NCBI GenBank assembly: GCA_030448105.1
Contig: JAUJNP010000006.1
Location: 119,952-183,951, forward strand
Source of the DNA: Acidimicrobiales bacterium
GTDB taxonomy: Bacteria; Actinomycetota; Acidimicrobiia; Acidimicrobiales; Iamiaceae
DNA length: 64,000 bases
Direction of reading: 5' to 3'
The notes below the pieces were generated by a model, which was not told where the DNA came from, did not search any database, and saw nothing but the letters and a program-made list of their open reading frames with translations. A program made the translations under genes and the position numbers. This document shows, in pieces, positions 1 to 46,530 of this stretch (its first letter is position 1; every line of letters begins with the position of its first letter).

Positions 1-26
1 CGGAGGCGGAGCCAATGTGACGATGC

Positions 27-55
27 TTGACCGAACTTCCGTTCGCAATTACATT
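27..55 (+). promoter_or_regulatory. recA distal promoter with LexA (SOS) box in the spacer
   Basis: TTGACC (27-32), a 17-base spacer and TACATT (50-55) form a good sigma-70 type promoter. Inside the spacer, 32-45 reads CGAACTTCCGTTCG, a perfect CGAAC-N4-GTTCG palindrome, the LexA operator form known in Gram-positive bacteria and actinobacteria. LexA bound there would cover the promoter, so recA should be SOS-induced. The promoter assignment is inferred from sequence; the palindrome is seen directly. Confidence 0.8.
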
Positions 56-94
56 GCTGTCGTTCCGGCTGCCCCCGACCCCCTCCCCCCGGGA

Positions 95-117
95 CTGTCA
101 CACCCCCTGCGTAGGTT
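95..117 (+). promoter_or_regulatory. recA proximal promoter, PafBC/RecA-NDp-like
   Basis: The block CTGTCACAC (95-103), eight bases, then TAGGTT (112-117) fits the mycobacterial LexA-independent recA promoter pattern tTGTCRgtg-N8-TAnnnT, which is activated by PafBC. The first part is repeated almost exactly in front of the LysM gene near 17050 and the sigma-like gene near 59122. Predicted transcription start is about 124, giving a leader of roughly 64 bases to the GTG of recA. Activation by PafBC is inference. Confidence 0.6.
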
Positions 118-187
118 CGCCTCACCCGATCGCTGCAGCCCGCAGCCGAGCTCGATACCTAACGAACACGTACAGAGAGGACGTCCG

Positions 188-1243
<1,056 letters not shown>

Positions 1244-1302
1244 GGTCGAGGTCGTCAGGGCTCGGGGCAGGGTTGGTCCGGCGAGGCGGCGAATCCCAAG
1301 GC

Positions 1303-1665
1303 GTGGACGCGGCTGAGCCGGAGACCCTGAAGGTCTCCACCAAGTCGAACCCCAGCTCGGTGGCGGGCGCCATGGCCGGCGTCATCCGCCAGTCGGGCGC
1401 CGTCCAGGTCCAGGTGGTGGGAGCCGGCGCGCTCAACCAGGCGGTCAAGGCGGTCGCCATCGCCCGGGGCTACCTGGCCGCCTCGGGCCTCGACCTCGTG
1501 TGCGTTCCCACCTTCGCCGACATCGTGATCGACGGCGAGCCCCGCACCGCCATCCGGCTCCGCATCGAGGACCGCCAGCCCCGTGCGCGACCCGCCGACT
1601 TCAGCCCCGTCGACCCCGGCGAGGAGCTCGGGGGGCTCGACGGCGTGGCCACCGCCATCGCCTGA
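1303..1665 (+). CDS. spoVS: Stage V sporulation protein S family (SpoVS)
   Basis: Small Alba-like nucleic-acid-binding family, named from Bacillus sporulation but widespread in non-sporulating bacteria. The 120-residue product carries the core [20 protein letters not shown] followed by the [19 protein letters not shown] helix and a [14 protein letters not shown] strand. Start GTG 1303 gives [12 protein letters not shown], matching the usual short N-terminus; a TTG at 1273 is the only upstream alternative. The acidic C-terminal tail of about 30 residues is longer than in Bacillus. It lies 60 bases after recA and 56 before miaB on the same strand, so co-transcription is plausible. The role in this organism is unknown. 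Confidence 0.9.
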
Positions 1666-1721
1666 GGATCCGGTCGCGCCGGACCAGGGTGCCCTCGGCT
1701 CCGGCCGGTAGCTTGCATCCC

Positions 1722-3158
1722 ATGGAGCCCGGAGGGAGCGCCCGGCGCCGCTACTCCATCAAGACGTTCGGCTGCCAGATGAACGAGCACGACTCCGAGC
1801 GCATCGCCGGGCTCTTCGAGGCGGCGGGCATGGTGCCGGCGGAGGGCGCCGACGACGCCGACGTGGTCTTCCTCAACACCTGCTGCATCCGGGAGAACGC
1901 CGACAACCGCCTCTACGGCACCCTGGGCCACCTGAAGGCAGCCAAGGCGACCCGGCCCGACATGGAGATCATGGTGGGCGGTTGCCTGGCCCAGAAGGAC
2001 CGTGACCTCATACGCCGCCGGGCCCCTCATGTCGACGTGGTGCTGGGCACCCACAACGTGCAGCGGGCCGCCGACCTGCTGGCCGAGGCCCGCCGTGACG
2101 GGCCCATCACGGAGATCCTCGAGGCATCGGTGATCGAAGACCACGAGGCCTTCCCGTCCTCGCTGCCCGTGCGTCGCGACCTGGGCCACGCCGCCTGGGT
2201 CACCATCCAGATCGGCTGCGACAACGCCTGCGCCTTCTGCATCGTGCCCGCCGTGCGGGGCCCTGAGATGAGTCGGCCCTTCGACCACCTGGTGGCCGAG
2301 GCCGGTCGCCTGGCCGGCGAGGGCGTGGTGGAGGTCACCCTCCTCGGCCAGAACGTCAACTCCTACGGGCGCGACCTGGCGCGGGCCCGCCGCCGTTCCG
2401 GGGAGGGTGATGTTCGGATCCGCCCCATGTTCGGCGAGCTCCTGCGGGCGGTCGGCGCGGTCGAGGGCATCCGGCGGGTGCGCTTCACCAGCCCCCACCC
2501 AAAGGACCTGAGCGCCGAGGTCATCGAGGCCATGGCCGAGACCCCGGCGGTGTGCGAGCACCTCCACCTGCCGTTGCAGTCGGGCAGCGACCGGGTGCTG
2601 GCCGCCATGCACCGGGGCTACACCGCCGCCCGCTACCTCGACCGCCTGGCCGCCGCACGGGCTGCGGTCGACGACCTGGCCGTCACCACCGACGTCATCG
2701 TGGGCTTCCCGGGGGAGACCGACGCCGACTTCGAGCGCACCCTCGAGGTGGTGGCGGAGGCGGGCTACGACAGCGCCTACACGTTCCTCTACTCGCCGCG
2801 TCCCGGCACGGAGGCGGCTGCGCTCGCCGACCAAATGGTGGCGCCCGACGTGTGTGCCGAGCGCTTCGAACGGCTGCGGGTGGTGGTGGAGCGATCGGCC
2901 CTGGCCCGCCACCGCGCCCGCATCGGACGGACCGAGGAGGTGGTGGTGGAGGGACCCTCGAAGCGGGACCCGCTCACCACCACCGGCCGGACCCGCCAGG
3001 ACAAGCTCGTGCACTTCGCGTCCCCGGATCCGCTCCGCCCGGGCACGTTCGCCGAGGTCCGCGTCACCGGGGCCGGCGCCCACCACCTCCGGGGCGAGCT
3101 GGTCACCGTCACCGCCGCCCCCCGCCACCGCACCCGCATCCCCGTCACCGCCGGCTGA
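1722..3158 (+). CDS. miaB: tRNA-2-methylthio-N6-dimethylallyladenosine synthase MiaB
   Basis: Radical-SAM methylthiotransferase that converts i6A37 to ms2i6A37 in tRNAs reading UNN codons. The 478-residue protein has the N-terminal UPF0004 domain with conserved cysteines (KTFGCQMNEHDSE near 18, NTCCIRENA near 53), the radical SAM motif GCDNACAFCIVP near residue 165, LLGQNVNSYG typical of MiaB, and a C-terminal TRAM domain (about 400-470). ATG 1722 starts MEPGGSARRRYSIKTFG. Its functional partner miaA, which makes the i6A substrate, lies about 2.4 kb downstream on the same strand. Confidence 0.96.
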   Translation: MEPGGSARRRYSIKTFGCQMNEHDSERIAGLFEAAGMVPAEGADDADVVFLNTCCIRENADNRLYGTLGHLKAAKATRPDMEIMVGGCLAQKDRDLIRRRAPHVDVVLGTHNVQRAADLLAEARRDGPITEILEASVIEDHEAFPSSLPVRRDLGHAAWVTIQIGCDNACAFCIVPAVRGPEMSRPFDHLVAEAGRLAGEGVVEVTLLGQNVNSYGRDLARARRRSGEGDVRIRPMFGELLRAVGAVEGIRRVRFTSPHPKDLSAEVIEAMAETPAVCEHLHLPLQSGSDRVLAAMHRGYTAARYLDRLAAARAAVDDLAVTTDVIVGFPGETDADFERTLEVVAEAGYDSAYTFLYSPRPGTEAAALADQMVAPDVCAERFERLRVVVERSALARHRARIGRTEEVVVEGPSKRDPLTTTGRTRQDKLVHFASPDPLRPGTFAEVRVTGAGAHHLRGELVTVTAAPRHRTRIPVTAG

Positions 3159-3167
3159 GCGGGCCCG

Positions 3168-4028
3168 GTGCCGGCCGCCCCCCGACCCGCCGACCCGCGC
3201 TTCCGCTCGGGGCCGCCCGCCGAACCGGCGGCCGCCCCCACCGCGGTACCGGCCGCCCTCGGCGGAGTGCTGGCGGGGGCGATGTGGGAGCAGGTGTGGG
3301 TGAAGGAGGGCACCGAGGTGTGGCGCGCCGCCGTCGCCGGCGCCGTCCGCTACGTGAAGATCGGCGGCGACGACGGTGCCGACGGCGTCGCCGACGAAGC
3401 CGAGCGGCTGGGGTGGCTGGCGGGCCGGGCAGCGGTGCCGGAGGTGCTGGCCCACCACCGCGACGGCGACGGGCGAGCGTGGCTGGTGACGGCCGAAGTG
3501 CCGGGCGTGCCCGCCCACGACCCCGGGTTCGCCCTCGGCTCGGTGGAGCCGCTGCTCGAGGCCCTCGGCCAGGGCCTGCGCCGCCTCCACGACACCCTGC
3601 CCGTCGACGCCTGCCCGTTCGACGCGCGCCTCGACGTCCTCCTGGCCCGCAGCCGGGCCCGGGTGCGGGCAGGCAAGGTCGACGTCGACGCGCTCGAACC
3701 GGCCTACCGCCGGTTGACCCCCGACCAGATCCTCGATCACCTCCACGCCACCCGACCGCCCGAACCGGCCGAGGACCTGGTCGTCGCCCACGGTGATCCG
3801 TGCCTGCCCAACCTCCTCGTCGATCCCGCTGCCCTGACCCTCTCCGGGCTCGTCGACGTCGGCCGCCTCGGCGTGTCGGACCGCTACCGCGACCTGGCCA
3901 TCGTGGCCCGGTCGCTGGTGGCCAACGTGGGCCCCGAGGTGGCGTCACGGTTCTTCGACGCCTACGGGCTGAGCCGGCCCGACCTGTTGCGCCTCGAGTA
4001 CTACGTGCTGCTCGACGAGCTCTGGTGA
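3168..4028 (+). CDS. Aminoglycoside phosphotransferase (APH) family kinase
   Basis: Protein-kinase-fold phosphotransferase of about 286 residues. The catalytic loop is VVAHGDPCLPNLLVD and the Mg-binding aspartate lies in LVDVGRLGVSDRYRDLAI, the arrangement of APH(3')-type enzymes. A lysine in AVRYVKIGG is the likely ATP-binding residue. GTG 3168 is the first start after miaB ends at 3158; a start further in, at ATG 3283, is also possible because the first 35 residues are Ala/Pro-rich. The substrate is unknown: many APH-family proteins in actinobacteria are not resistance enzymes. The next gene overlaps by one base. Confidence 0.8.
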   Translation: MPAAPRPADPRFRSGPPAEPAAAPTAVPAALGGVLAGAMWEQVWVKEGTEVWRAAVAGAVRYVKIGGDDGADGVADEAERLGWLAGRAAVPEVLAHHRDGDGRAWLVTAEVPGVPAHDPGFALGSVEPLLEALGQGLRRLHDTLPVDACPFDARLDVLLARSRARVRAGKVDVDALEPAYRRLTPDQILDHLHATRPPEPAEDLVVAHGDPCLPNLLVDPAALTLSGLVDVGRLGVSDRYRDLAIVARSLVANVGPEVASRFFDAYGLSRPDLLRLEYYVLLDELW

Positions 4029-4738
4029 TGGCCGCCTTCGTGCTGGTGCACAGCCCGCTGGTGGGGCCGGCCACGTGGCGGCAGGTGGCGGACGAGCTCC
4101 GGCGGCGTGGCTTCGAAGCCCTCGTCCCGGCGCGGCGGGCACCGCTCGACACCGGGCGCCCGTACTGGGCGGCCGCCGCCGGCGACGAGGTCGCCGACCT
4201 CCACCGCTCGGGGGACGACGAGGTCGTGCTGGTGGGCCACAGCGGCGCCGGGCCGTGGCTGCCCGCCATCGGCGAGGCCGTCGCCGCCGCTGGCCGCCGG
4301 CTGACGGCCGTCCTCTTCGTCGACGCCGGTCTCCCGACCGCGGGGCCCGTCTCCGCCACGCTGACCGGACCGTTCCTGGCTCAGCTCGAAGCCCTCACCG
4401 GGCCGGGCGGGGTGCTACCGCCGTGGCCGGAGTGGTGGCCACCGGAGACCCTGGCCACCCTCGTGCCCGATCCCGTGGCCCGGGCCGCCCTGGTGGCCGA
4501 ATGCCGGCCGGTGCCGGCCGATCTCTGGGACGATCCCGCACCGTCCCCGCCCGGGTGGCCCGGATCGGTGCCGTGCGGCTACCTCTCCTTCACCTACGAG
4601 GACGACGCCTCCGCCGCTCAGGAGCGCGGGTGGATAGTGGCCCGCATGGACGGCCACCACCTGCAGGCCATCGTCGATCCCGCGGGGGTGGCCGACGCCC
4701 TCCAGCTGCTGCTCGGTGCGCTCGGCGTGCTTCCCTGA
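4028..4738 (+). CDS. Alpha/beta hydrolase
   Basis: About 236 residues. The N-terminus FVLVHSPLVGPATWRQV is a typical oxyanion-hole strand and loop, and VVLVGHSGAGPWLP contains the nucleophile elbow G-H-S-G-A. The C-terminal MDGHHLQAIVDP supplies the catalytic histidine. ATG 4028 overlaps the stop of the preceding kinase gene by one base, so translation is probably coupled. The substrate cannot be told from the sequence. Confidence 0.8.
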   Translation: MAAFVLVHSPLVGPATWRQVADELRRRGFEALVPARRAPLDTGRPYWAAAAGDEVADLHRSGDDEVVLVGHSGAGPWLPAIGEAVAAAGRRLTAVLFVDAGLPTAGPVSATLTGPFLAQLEALTGPGGVLPPWPEWWPPETLATLVPDPVARAALVAECRPVPADLWDDPAPSPPGWPGSVPCGYLSFTYEDDASAAQERGWIVARMDGHHLQAIVDPAGVADALQLLLGALGVLP

Positions 4739-42701: not shown

Positions 42702-43838
42702 TCAGCCGTTCTTGGGTAGGTCGCGGAACGGCGTGGTGCGCTCGTGGCCCGGCTCCTTGGGCAGGCCCAGCACCCGCTCGCCGATGATGTTGTGCTGTAC
42801 CTCGTCGGTGCCGCCGTAGATGGCCGGGGCCGGGGAGAAGAGGCTCATCTCGGTGACCATCCCGGCGAAGGGGTTGCCGGTGGCGGCGTCGAGCGCGGCC
42901 CGCTGGCCGCCGTCGTAGGCGTGGAGCGTGCCGTAGGGCCCGAGGATGCGCAGGCCGAGGTCGCGGGCCAGGCGCACGATGGCGCTCATGGACAGCTTGG
43001 CGATGTTGCCCACGGCCGGCAGATCCTGGCCCGCCGCCGCCAGGGCCTTCTGGCGCAGGTTCGTGTACCGGGCGATCTCGTTGGCGGTGTGGAGGCGGAT
43101 GAGGTCCTGGCGCACCGAGGGGTCGGCGATGGCGCCGTTGCCCCTGGCCAGCTGCACCAGCAGCTTCTCGGCGGCGGAGAACATGCTCCCCGGGCTACCG
43201 GCCCGCCCCCCGCCGCCCGACACGAAGTCGCCGGCCCGGCGCTCCAGGTCCCCGGCCACGGTGCCGGGCGTGGCCGGCGACGCCGCCGCCGTGCCGCCCC
43301 CCGCTCCCAGGCCCGCCCGCTCGTAGGCGAGGGTAGTGTTGGCCACCGCCCAGCCGTCGTTGCGGCCGCCGAGGAGGGCGTCGTCGGCCACCCGGGCGTC
43401 GGTGAGGAACCACCCACTCATCGCCGTCGGCCACCGCCCGGCACTGCAGGCCGGCCAGGTCCGATCCCGCGCCGGGCTCGCTGAAGAGCTGGCACCACGC
43501 CTTCTGGCCGGTGACGATGTCGCGGAGGTAGCGCCGCTTCTGGTCGTCGGTGCCGTGGGTGACGATGGTGGGGCCGGCCAGCAGGAGCCCCAGCCCGCCG
43601 GGGGGCCGAGGGCGCCGGCGGCGGAGATGGCCCGCTGCACCCGCACGCCTTCCTCCCGGGAGAGGCCGTGCCCGTGCTTGTCGGTGGGCCAGGTGGGGGC
43701 CGACCACCCCGCGTCGGCCATGTGCTCCCACCATTCCCCGACGGTGAGGTCGGGGTCCCAGCGCCGCTCGAGGAAGGCGGTGACCTCGGCGGTCACATCT
43801 TCGCTGGGTGCCTGCGTTCGCTGAGCGGTGTCGGCCAT
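42702..43838 (-). pseudogene. Acyl-CoA dehydrogenase with frameshifts and an internal deletion
   Basis: Starts ATG 43838 ([20 protein letters not shown]) and reads [25 protein letters not shown] normally. Near 43600 one C seems missing from a C-run, shifting into the frame that reads [19 protein letters not shown] and [20 protein letters not shown]. Near 43415, after DGDEWVV, about 60-70 residues expected in this family (GQKVWTS to FNEVFF) are absent, and the text resumes in the first frame at [20 protein letters not shown], continuing to the normal C-terminus IYGGTDEVQHNIIGERVLGLP. The loss of the substrate-binding middle part would inactivate it; misassembly is the alternative. Confidence 0.85.
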
Positions 43839-43890
43839 GGCGGTCCCCTCGGTGGCTCCGGTCCCTGCGTACCCCGCAGTCGACACCTCG

Positions 43891-43908
43891 CTTGACCGCG
43901 GGGTCAAG
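43891..43908. promoter_or_regulatory. Palindromic operator-like site upstream of the acyl-CoA dehydrogenase
   Basis: CTTGACC-GCGG-GGTCAAG is a perfect 7+7 inverted repeat 53 bases before the ATG at 43838. It overlaps the predicted end of phoD. The TTGACC half may serve as a -35 on the minus strand. Similar palindromes are bound by TetR-type regulators of lipid catabolism; no regulator gene is adjacent. Confidence 0.5.
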
Positions 43909-45942: not shown

Positions 45943-46212
45943 TCAGTCGCGGGCGATCTCGGGCCCGATCCGGTCCCGCACCAGGGCGGCCACCTCGCCC
46001 GGCTCGGCATGGCGGCCGAGGGCGGCCTTGGAGAAGATGAGCTCACCGTCGAGGGTGACCTCGAAGCGGCCCGAGGAGGCGGGCACGAGCTCCACCGCGA
46101 CGATGACCGGAGCCCAGCCGTTGAGCAGTTCGTCCGTCAGACCGACGGCACGGGGGACGTAGTTTCAGGGAACGCAGAACTCGATGCGCAAGTGGTGCCG
46201 GGGGTCGAGCAC
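45943..46212 (-). CDS. SelW-like (Rdx family) selenoprotein with in-frame UGA (Sec16)
   Basis: Thioredoxin-like Rdx/SelT-SelW-SelH family protein of 89 residues. From GTG 46212, after an excellent AGGAGGTGA Shine-Dalgarno sequence, it reads VLDPRHHLRIEFCVP, then TGA (46165-46167), then NYVPRAVGLTDELLNGWAP, VELVPASSGRFEVTLDGELIFS and VAALVRDRIGPEIARD, and stops at 45943. Cysteine homologues have CxxC at this spot, so the TGA takes the place of the second Cys: C13-V-P-U16. A SECIS-like hairpin follows at the right distance. The family is thought to be redox-active. The Nfu-like gene lies 60 bases upstream on the same strand. The alternative, a nonsense mutation, would not explain the hairpin. 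Confidence 0.9.
46131..46152 (-). promoter_or_regulatory. Bacterial SECIS element
   Basis: In the mRNA, 16 bases after the UGA, CCGUC-GGUCU-GACGG forms a five-pair stem with a five-base loop (46134-46148). CGU and ACG outside it add three pairs with one bulged G. The GGUCU loop is the same as the SelB-binding apical loop of E. coli fdhF, and the loop lies 21 bases from the UGA, within the range known for bacterial SECIS elements. Confidence 0.85.
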
Positions 46213-46272
46213 GTCACCTCCTCCCTGAGCGTCGCTTTGGCGTGCGGCCACCGTAGCGGCCCCCTGACCGCG

Positions 46273-46530
46273 TCAGAGGTGGGTCGAGATGGCCGCTTGC
46301 ACGGCGGCGATGATGGGCTGCCAGTCAGCGTCGGGTCGACGGCTGACGGTCACGAAGTCGTTGACGGCGAACAGGCCCACGACACCGTCGATGGAGAAGA
46401 CGGCCTCGGCGAAGGGGTGGCCGGCGGCCGCGGCCGCGTCGGGGAAGTTCATCCTCGCCGGCAGGGTCACGTCGAGCGTGAACTTGAGGGCGTTGGGGTT
46501 CGGCGTCGGCGCCGGCGTTCCAGTGGCCAC
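46273..46530 (-). CDS. Nfu/NifU N-terminal-domain scaffold protein
   Basis: 85-residue protein consisting of the Nfu_N domain: PTPNPNALKFTLDVTLPARMNF, then HPFAEAVFSIDGVVGLFAVNDFVTVSRR and ADWQPIIAAVQAAI. In two-domain Nfu proteins this domain precedes the CxxC iron-sulfur carrier domain; here it stands alone without cysteines, so it cannot hold a cluster by itself. It is followed by the SelW-like gene, perhaps in one transcript. Confidence 0.85.
   Translation of the reverse strand: MATGTPAPTPNPNALKFTLDVTLPARMNFPDAAAAAGHPFAEAVFSIDGVVGLFAVNDFVTVSRRPDADWQPIIAAVQAAISTHL

Follow-up and report, generated by a model that had tools for sequence, protein, structure and literature searches.

The selW-like gene and its hairpin

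The window analyzed here, a stretch of 64,000 nucleotides from the draft genome of an Acidimicrobiales bacterium, carries on its minus strand a selW-like gene of the Rdx family that encodes 89 residues and ends in a TGA stop codon (Table 1). The first-pass annotation had given the coordinates of this gene correctly but not its strand. The layout is AGGAGGTGA, a GTG start, 15 codons, a TGA, 73 codons, and a second TGA as closing stop (45945..45943), and the frame is open throughout except at the first of these two TGA codons. Four bases separate GGAGG from the GTG, in agreement with the Shine-Dalgarno site proposed earlier, and an ATG or GTG occupies the same start position in four of the six closest named relatives (L024, L025, L027, and L028 among L024-L029). 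A stop-codon-based gene caller would cut the gene off after 15 residues, which the reading given here corrects.

Both sides of the TGA had been read as a single Rdx protein. Pfam Rdx (PF10262) gave one match across the TGA, at residues 8-80, which scored 68.8 bits (cut-off 22.6; E 4.7e-19), and chance cannot account for this match. The protein also scored 52.9 bits with TIGR02174 (CXXU_selWTH; cut-off 34.2) and 80.5 bits with the equivalog NF041051, which is under the cut-off of 88 for that model. When a profile built from the window gene together with its relatives was compared with solved structures, we observed matches to SAV_2001 (PDB 3dex, E 9.5e-22), a Cys-type Rdx protein of the same family, and to selenoprotein W (PDB 2npb, E 1.4e-8), a remote homologue and eukaryotic CxxU protein. 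The redox motif of the window protein is C-V-P-U. Alignment with relatives and Cys homologues positions the TGA at the second Cys of CxxC, precisely where it had been placed before. In other Actinomycetota, CTxC homologues (L093-L102) belong to the same family and have Cys where the window protein has the predicted Sec.

Table 1. Features of the selW-like locus in the window
Feature	Position	Strand	Basis
selW-like (Rdx family) predicted selenoprotein CDS	45943..46212	-	Frame read; Pfam Rdx 68.8 bits
Shine-Dalgarno-like AGGAGGTGA, function predicted	46214..46222	-	Letters read directly
GTG start	46212..46210	-	Read directly
TGC, first Cys of C-x-x-U, putative resolving Cys	46174..46176	-	Sequence and alignment
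In-frame TGA, predicted Sec codon of residue 16	46165..46167	-	Frame and TGA in relatives
Candidate SECIS of bacterial type, 5-bp stem CCGUC/GACGG with loop GGUCU (46143..46139)	46134..46148	-	Fold, covariation, codon shuffle, third positions

The hairpin CCGUC-GGUCU-GACGG begins 16 nt past the TGA, as had been described, and its loop begins 21 nt past the UGA. In the window sequence alone it is modest evidence: the same hairpin forms in 2.0% of synonymous-codon shuffles (n = 20,000). Folding of the mRNA around the UGA, a check proposed with the first-pass annotation, gave a divided result. The bare 17 nt reach -7.4 kcal/mol (z -2.23, equaled by 8 of 200 shuffles), whereas the energies in context are ordinary, at -10.8 kcal/mol for 40 nt (z -0.41) and -17.7 kcal/mol for 71 nt (z +1.39). 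Folding energy was not significant in context and was dropped as evidence for the hairpin. No Rfam family matched the hairpin region at a permissive threshold, and the whole window gave no match in Rfam at gathering scores or in a tRNA scan. The bacterial SECIS model, as outlined in PMC13188914, comprises an apical loop of 3-9 nt with G in the first two loop positions, an upper stem of 4-16 bp, a spacing of 16-37 nt from UGA to loop, and a minimum free energy of at most -7.5 kcal/mol. The window hairpin fits this outline with its 5-nt loop GGUCU, 5-bp stem, and spacing of 21 nt; in energy, the 40 nt after the UGA lie within the limit of the model and the bare 17-nt hairpin falls just short of it. 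The hairpin is significant because it is conserved in relatives, as described below.

A stand-alone Nfu N-terminal domain protein (PF08712, 71.8 bits; 46273-46530, minus strand) is encoded 60 bases upstream on the same strand, and a cupin gene lies on the other side. In a comparison of 1.5-3 kb of flank at the loci of relatives, the Nfu_N and cupin genes were found beside selW at only one of 93 loci, L063, which is the window itself. An operon or functional link with these neighbors was dropped, as neither gene is conserved beside the selW of relatives. Farther away, an acyl-CoA dehydrogenase-like frame (42702-43900, minus strand; labeled by eye) seems to shift, with its middle part in the open reading frame 43734..43195, probably as a result of an assembly indel.

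Codon and hairpin in relatives

A scan of contigs from named genomes with the window protein identified 33 loci in several phyla, of which 32 have TGA at the codon; the sole TGC, encoding Cys, is in a Chloroflexi relative (L053). The scan patterns, one of which contained the residue as C, if anything favor Cys. Alignment A2 of this set has 33 rows, namely the window and 32 of the 33 loci (L054 was left out). In the order of the window, the SelW-like gene was present at E 1e-5 in 56 of 198 genomes, and each of its 57 copies there contains TGA in frame (once in 54 copies, twice in three). Exact codon and hairpin type were read for the 30 of these 57 matches fetched as loci, window included, and all 30 have TGA at the same codon. 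At the level of the phylum, with 396 genomes, the Rdx matches listed number 57 and come from 56 genomes; 40 of them contain TGA and 17 have no stop. The ten matches with the highest scores all belong to the stop-free set and have CTxC motifs, whereas G446, also in this set, matches only in part, from a point past the motif. A plasmid collection yielded 30 records with relatives, all below 60% identity, which were set aside.

For the comparison of hairpins, 93 sequences were taken up (the window, L024-L056, and L064-L122), and 91 were read over the 48 nt after the codon. The codon is TGA in 76, TGC in 13, and TGT in two of these. Removal of three sequences that were identical to others or contained letters other than ACGT left 88 distinct sequences, 73 Sec and 15 Cys. 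The remaining two, L076 and L122, failed a coordinate rule and are outside the hairpin counts and the tree; read later, both have TGA, with a hairpin of type 2 (6 bp) in L076 and of type 1 (7 bp) in L122. Here type 1, the type of the window, denotes 5 bp with the loop at 21 nt, and type 2 denotes at least 4 bp with the loop beginning at 17 nt, both with G-U at loop positions 2-3.

Type 1 is present in exact form in 41 of the 73 distinct Sec sequences, against 0.96 expected from synonymous shuffles, and in none of the 15 Cys sequences. For type 2 the corresponding numbers are 30 of 73 against 10.2 expected, and one of 15 Cys sequences against 0.93 expected, which is chance level. By these strict definitions, 63 of the 73 Sec sequences have at least one type, eight have both, and ten have neither, several of the latter with near variants. 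Among 44 Sec sequences chosen by the loop [AG]GT.T with any stem, standard pairs (CG, TA, TG, GC, AT, and GT) occupy 215 of the 220 stem cells, and pairing falls to 17-60% when the 3' arm is slid by 1-4 bases either way. Similarly, 148 of 162 cells pair in the 27 sequences assigned to type 2 by loop alone, compared to 15-69% when slid. These pairing and shuffle counts, like the codon counts below, treat kin sequences as independent and thus overstate significance. In the alignment with Cys homologues that had been suggested earlier, relatives display TGA together with the conserved hairpin, and not Cys without a hairpin.

Codon usage points in the same direction. Between the window and its six closest named relatives (L024-L029), the hairpin codons 22-27 differ at none of 36 third positions and contain no synonymous and seven amino-acid changes. 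Over codons 28-86, the 354 comparisons gave 133 differences at third positions and 86 changes that were synonymous. Selection on the RNA is the simple reading of this pattern.

The type-2 stem extends to 6-8 bp and covaries (CG, TA, GC, AT), and its loop,.GUG., starts 17 nt past the UGA. It is found in order and class relatives (L071-L092, L109, L117, and L118) and in members of other phyla (L031, L032, and L044). Both hairpins are possible in eight sequences, for example, L024, L041, and L120, and five type-2 sequences have fewer than 4 perfect pairs (L080, L082, L084, L087, and L089). In a tree that rests on 72 columns and leaves many forks open, 21 sequences of the order form one type-2 group (support 98/90), and three further places on the tree also have type 2. 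Judged by this tree, the hairpin registers appear to follow descent. The same protein with two hairpin positions and with either Sec or Cys provides a natural series for a test of the tolerance of SelB to a shift of the SECIS.

Selenocysteine machinery and reading of the gene

The window is part of contig C11 in a draft assembly of 49 contigs and 3.29 Mb, with a completeness of 93.85% and a contamination of 3.74%. The first-pass annotation had predicted that selA, selB, selC, and selD would be carried elsewhere, and a search recovered all of them in the same genome. The gene for tRNA-Sec was found twice above the Rfam cut-off of 47, on C31 (71 bits) and on C19 (68 bits), and ARAGORN agrees, with anticodon TCA. 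Contig C41 carries selA (401.3 bits, cut-off 267.9) and a selB that is just over its cut-off (246.8 bits, cut-off 242.25), and selD is on C29 (332.3 bits, cut-off 125). C41 is 7.2 kb in length (L058, C41:1-7206). Its bases 1-4717 are 98% identical to a part of C19 (L059), on which the selA/selB region is broken by small indels, in contrast to the intact copy on C41; the rest of C41 is of foreign composition (tetranucleotide r 0.09). We infer a single selAB locus, with assembly errors in C19 and a chimeric contig C41.

The two tRNA-Sec genes (L001/L061, C31:71513-71604; L002/L060, C19:106757-106848) have the same acceptor and T arms and differ in the D, anticodon, and variable arms. Their alignment of 131 bases, which takes in the flanks, has a mean column identity of 82%. 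The gene on C31 lies ten bases past a GGDEF-EAL gene. One of the two could be a contaminant. Genome G091 likewise has two tRNA-Sec genes.

In the sample of 198 genomes of the order, with thresholds of E 1e-5 for SelW, E 1e-20 for selA, and E 1e-9 for tRNA-Sec, selA was found in 117 and tRNA-Sec in 115. The 56 genomes with SelW have selA in 54 cases, tRNA-Sec in 52, and at least one of the two in 55, compared to selA or tRNA-Sec in 69 of the 142 genomes without SelW (Fisher p about 6e-13, uncorrected for relatedness). The only SelW genome with neither is G170, which has TGA-containing SelW and FdhA matches. This genome is 83% complete in 520 contigs, so that the assembly probably just fails to include its machinery.

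We consider the selW-like gene to be a functional selenoprotein gene with a probability of about 96%, a reading in which Sec insertion itself is predicted. Insertion at this UGA, as claimed in the first-pass annotation, is strongly supported by the machinery in the genome and by relatives with TGA and a conserved hairpin; both conditions that had been named in advance as refuting it were checked, and neither holds. In bacterial Sec insertion, SelA charges tRNA-Sec using selenophosphate from SelD, and SelB, bound to the SECIS hairpin, brings Sec-tRNA to the UGA. At the locus described here, the hairpin after the UGA would bind SelB carrying Sec-tRNA-Sec, and Sec would take the place of the second Cys of CxxC. 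The ribosome would translate a small Rdx/SelW protein, for which the solved Rdx structures matched above suggest a thioredoxin fold. This protein most likely acts as a thiol/selenol oxidoreductase, with attack by the selenol and resolution by the neighboring Cys; family and CxxU motif suggest a thiol-disulfide or peroxide-type redox role.

It is rather unlikely that the gene was acquired from another organism or lies on a contaminant contig, and is thus not long-resident. Consistent with such an origin, the gene was found at E 1e-5 in none of the six other sampled genomes of the family of the window, and selA and tRNA-Sec in only one of them. The nearest sequences in the tree belong to another family (f29), and blastn of window positions 40-53 kb against the loci of 13 relatives detected no similarity outside the gene. 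However, the tetranucleotide use of 8-kb pieces of the window agrees with that of the whole (r 0.93-0.96), as does that of the C19 stretches with selAB (0.96) and tRNA-Sec (0.95), in a test that is weak since two relatives also reach 0.92-0.94. The C31 stretch scores 0.88. A recent transfer among the 13 relatives is not visible, because nucleotide identity to them is 73-84%.

A second alternative is that a Cys codon of a normal Cys-type Rdx gene became TGA by mutation or misassembly, leaving a pseudogene or an error. The assembly does hold frameshifts, for example, in selA/selB on C19, but the damage seen consists of insertions or deletions and not of substitutions to TGA. Moreover, the codons after the TGA show an excess of third-position differences (133 of 235). 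This alternative is in effect refuted because relatives share the TGA, including 32 of the 33 named ones and all 57 matches in the order, and we regard it as highly improbable. We give almost no credence to a reading of the UGA outside the Sec pathway, by general suppression or reassignment to Trp, Cys, or another residue, for which nothing speaks except that the frame is open across the UGA, and against which stand the presence of selA, selB, selD, and tRNA-Sec, the position of the TGA exactly at the redox Cys, the conserved hairpin, and the use of TGA as the stop of the selW-like gene itself.

In Escherichia coli fdhF, the SECIS has a small apical loop with a G-U that is recognized by SelB, and GGUCU is in the loop. 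The window hairpin has the same GGUCU, in a loop that begins 21 nt after the UGA, whereas the loop of fdhF begins a few bases nearer. The eukaryotic SECIS, in contrast to that of the window, sits in the 3' UTR, as stated in general terms in PMC2398784. SelW-like selenoproteins in bacteria have been described since 2005-2006, and the window gene adds one more. SelW-like proteins were the most abundant selenoprotein family in the Sargasso Sea set, with 48 genes (PMC1088965), and are listed for Symbiobacterium and Desulfotomaculum in a 2006 survey of complete genomes, which also gives background on bacterial Sec insertion (PMC1794560). They head the Global Ocean Sampling table of 2008 with 427 Sec and 56 Cys forms (PMC2398784), and the table of a 2026 review has bacterial SelW-like proteins as predicted with high confidence (PMC13188914). 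A specialist would not be surprised to meet such a protein in a bacterium that carries selABCD. With the bacterial SelW-like proteins, as presented in these sources, the window gene shares the family (PF10262/Rdx), the CxxU motif, the SECIS directly after the UGA, and Sec machinery in the genome; the only difference from the accounts in PMC1088965, PMC1794560, PMC2398784, and PMC13188914 is the host lineage. The closest named relatives bear Acidimicrobiales or Acidimicrobiia in their titles. Among the papers listed in text searches, none has a title or abstract opening on selenoproteins of this group, a faint hint that the lineage may be undescribed in this respect. With the window gene, the likely users of Sec come to include an actinobacterial lineage.

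Formate dehydrogenase and the hairpin registers

Eight of the genomes behind the 30 fetched copies are of type 1, that is, register 21. None of these, including G010, which is only 70% complete, has a TGA-bearing FdhA match at E 1e-90, a cut-off at which weaker FdhA matches would be missed. Two of the eight, the genome of the window (G000) and G099, have stop-free FdhA matches, and the other six have no match at this cut-off. By contrast, TGA-bearing FdhA was found in 18 of the 22 type-2 genomes, as well as in 16 of the 26 SelW genomes without hairpin typing.

Among other possible selenoproteins of the window genome, the Sec/Cys state was read for FdhA and SelD. The FdhA-like protein (C19:169306-171165, L123) has the motif ARVCH, with Cys at the usual Sec position, where E. 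coli FdhF has Sec. SelD (C29:45576-46484, L022) has no in-frame TGA, and CGGC is near its start.

A tentative and rather doubtful proposal for the order as a whole is that the SelW SECIS exists in two registers, [A/G]GU.U at 21 nt and.GUG. at 17 nt, the latter in the 21-sequence clade, that register-21 lineages are without a Sec FdhA, and that they keep the Sec machinery mainly for SelW. If register-21 lineages have no Sec formate dehydrogenase, it would follow that the organism of the window maintains its machinery mainly for SelW. The 2006 survey, in its account of the genomes it covers, has FdhA or SelD in every selenoproteome (PMC1794560). The register-21 lineage would then be an exception to this observation (PMC1794560), and the comparison made here allows one to ask what sustains the Sec machinery once formate dehydrogenase no longer needs it. 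However, selA or tRNA-Sec is present in 124 genomes of the order, and 46 of these have neither SelW nor TGA-type FdhA at our cut-offs, among them G101 from the family of the window. Other selenoproteins are thus to be expected, and the order probably contains selenoproteins beyond SelW and FdhA.
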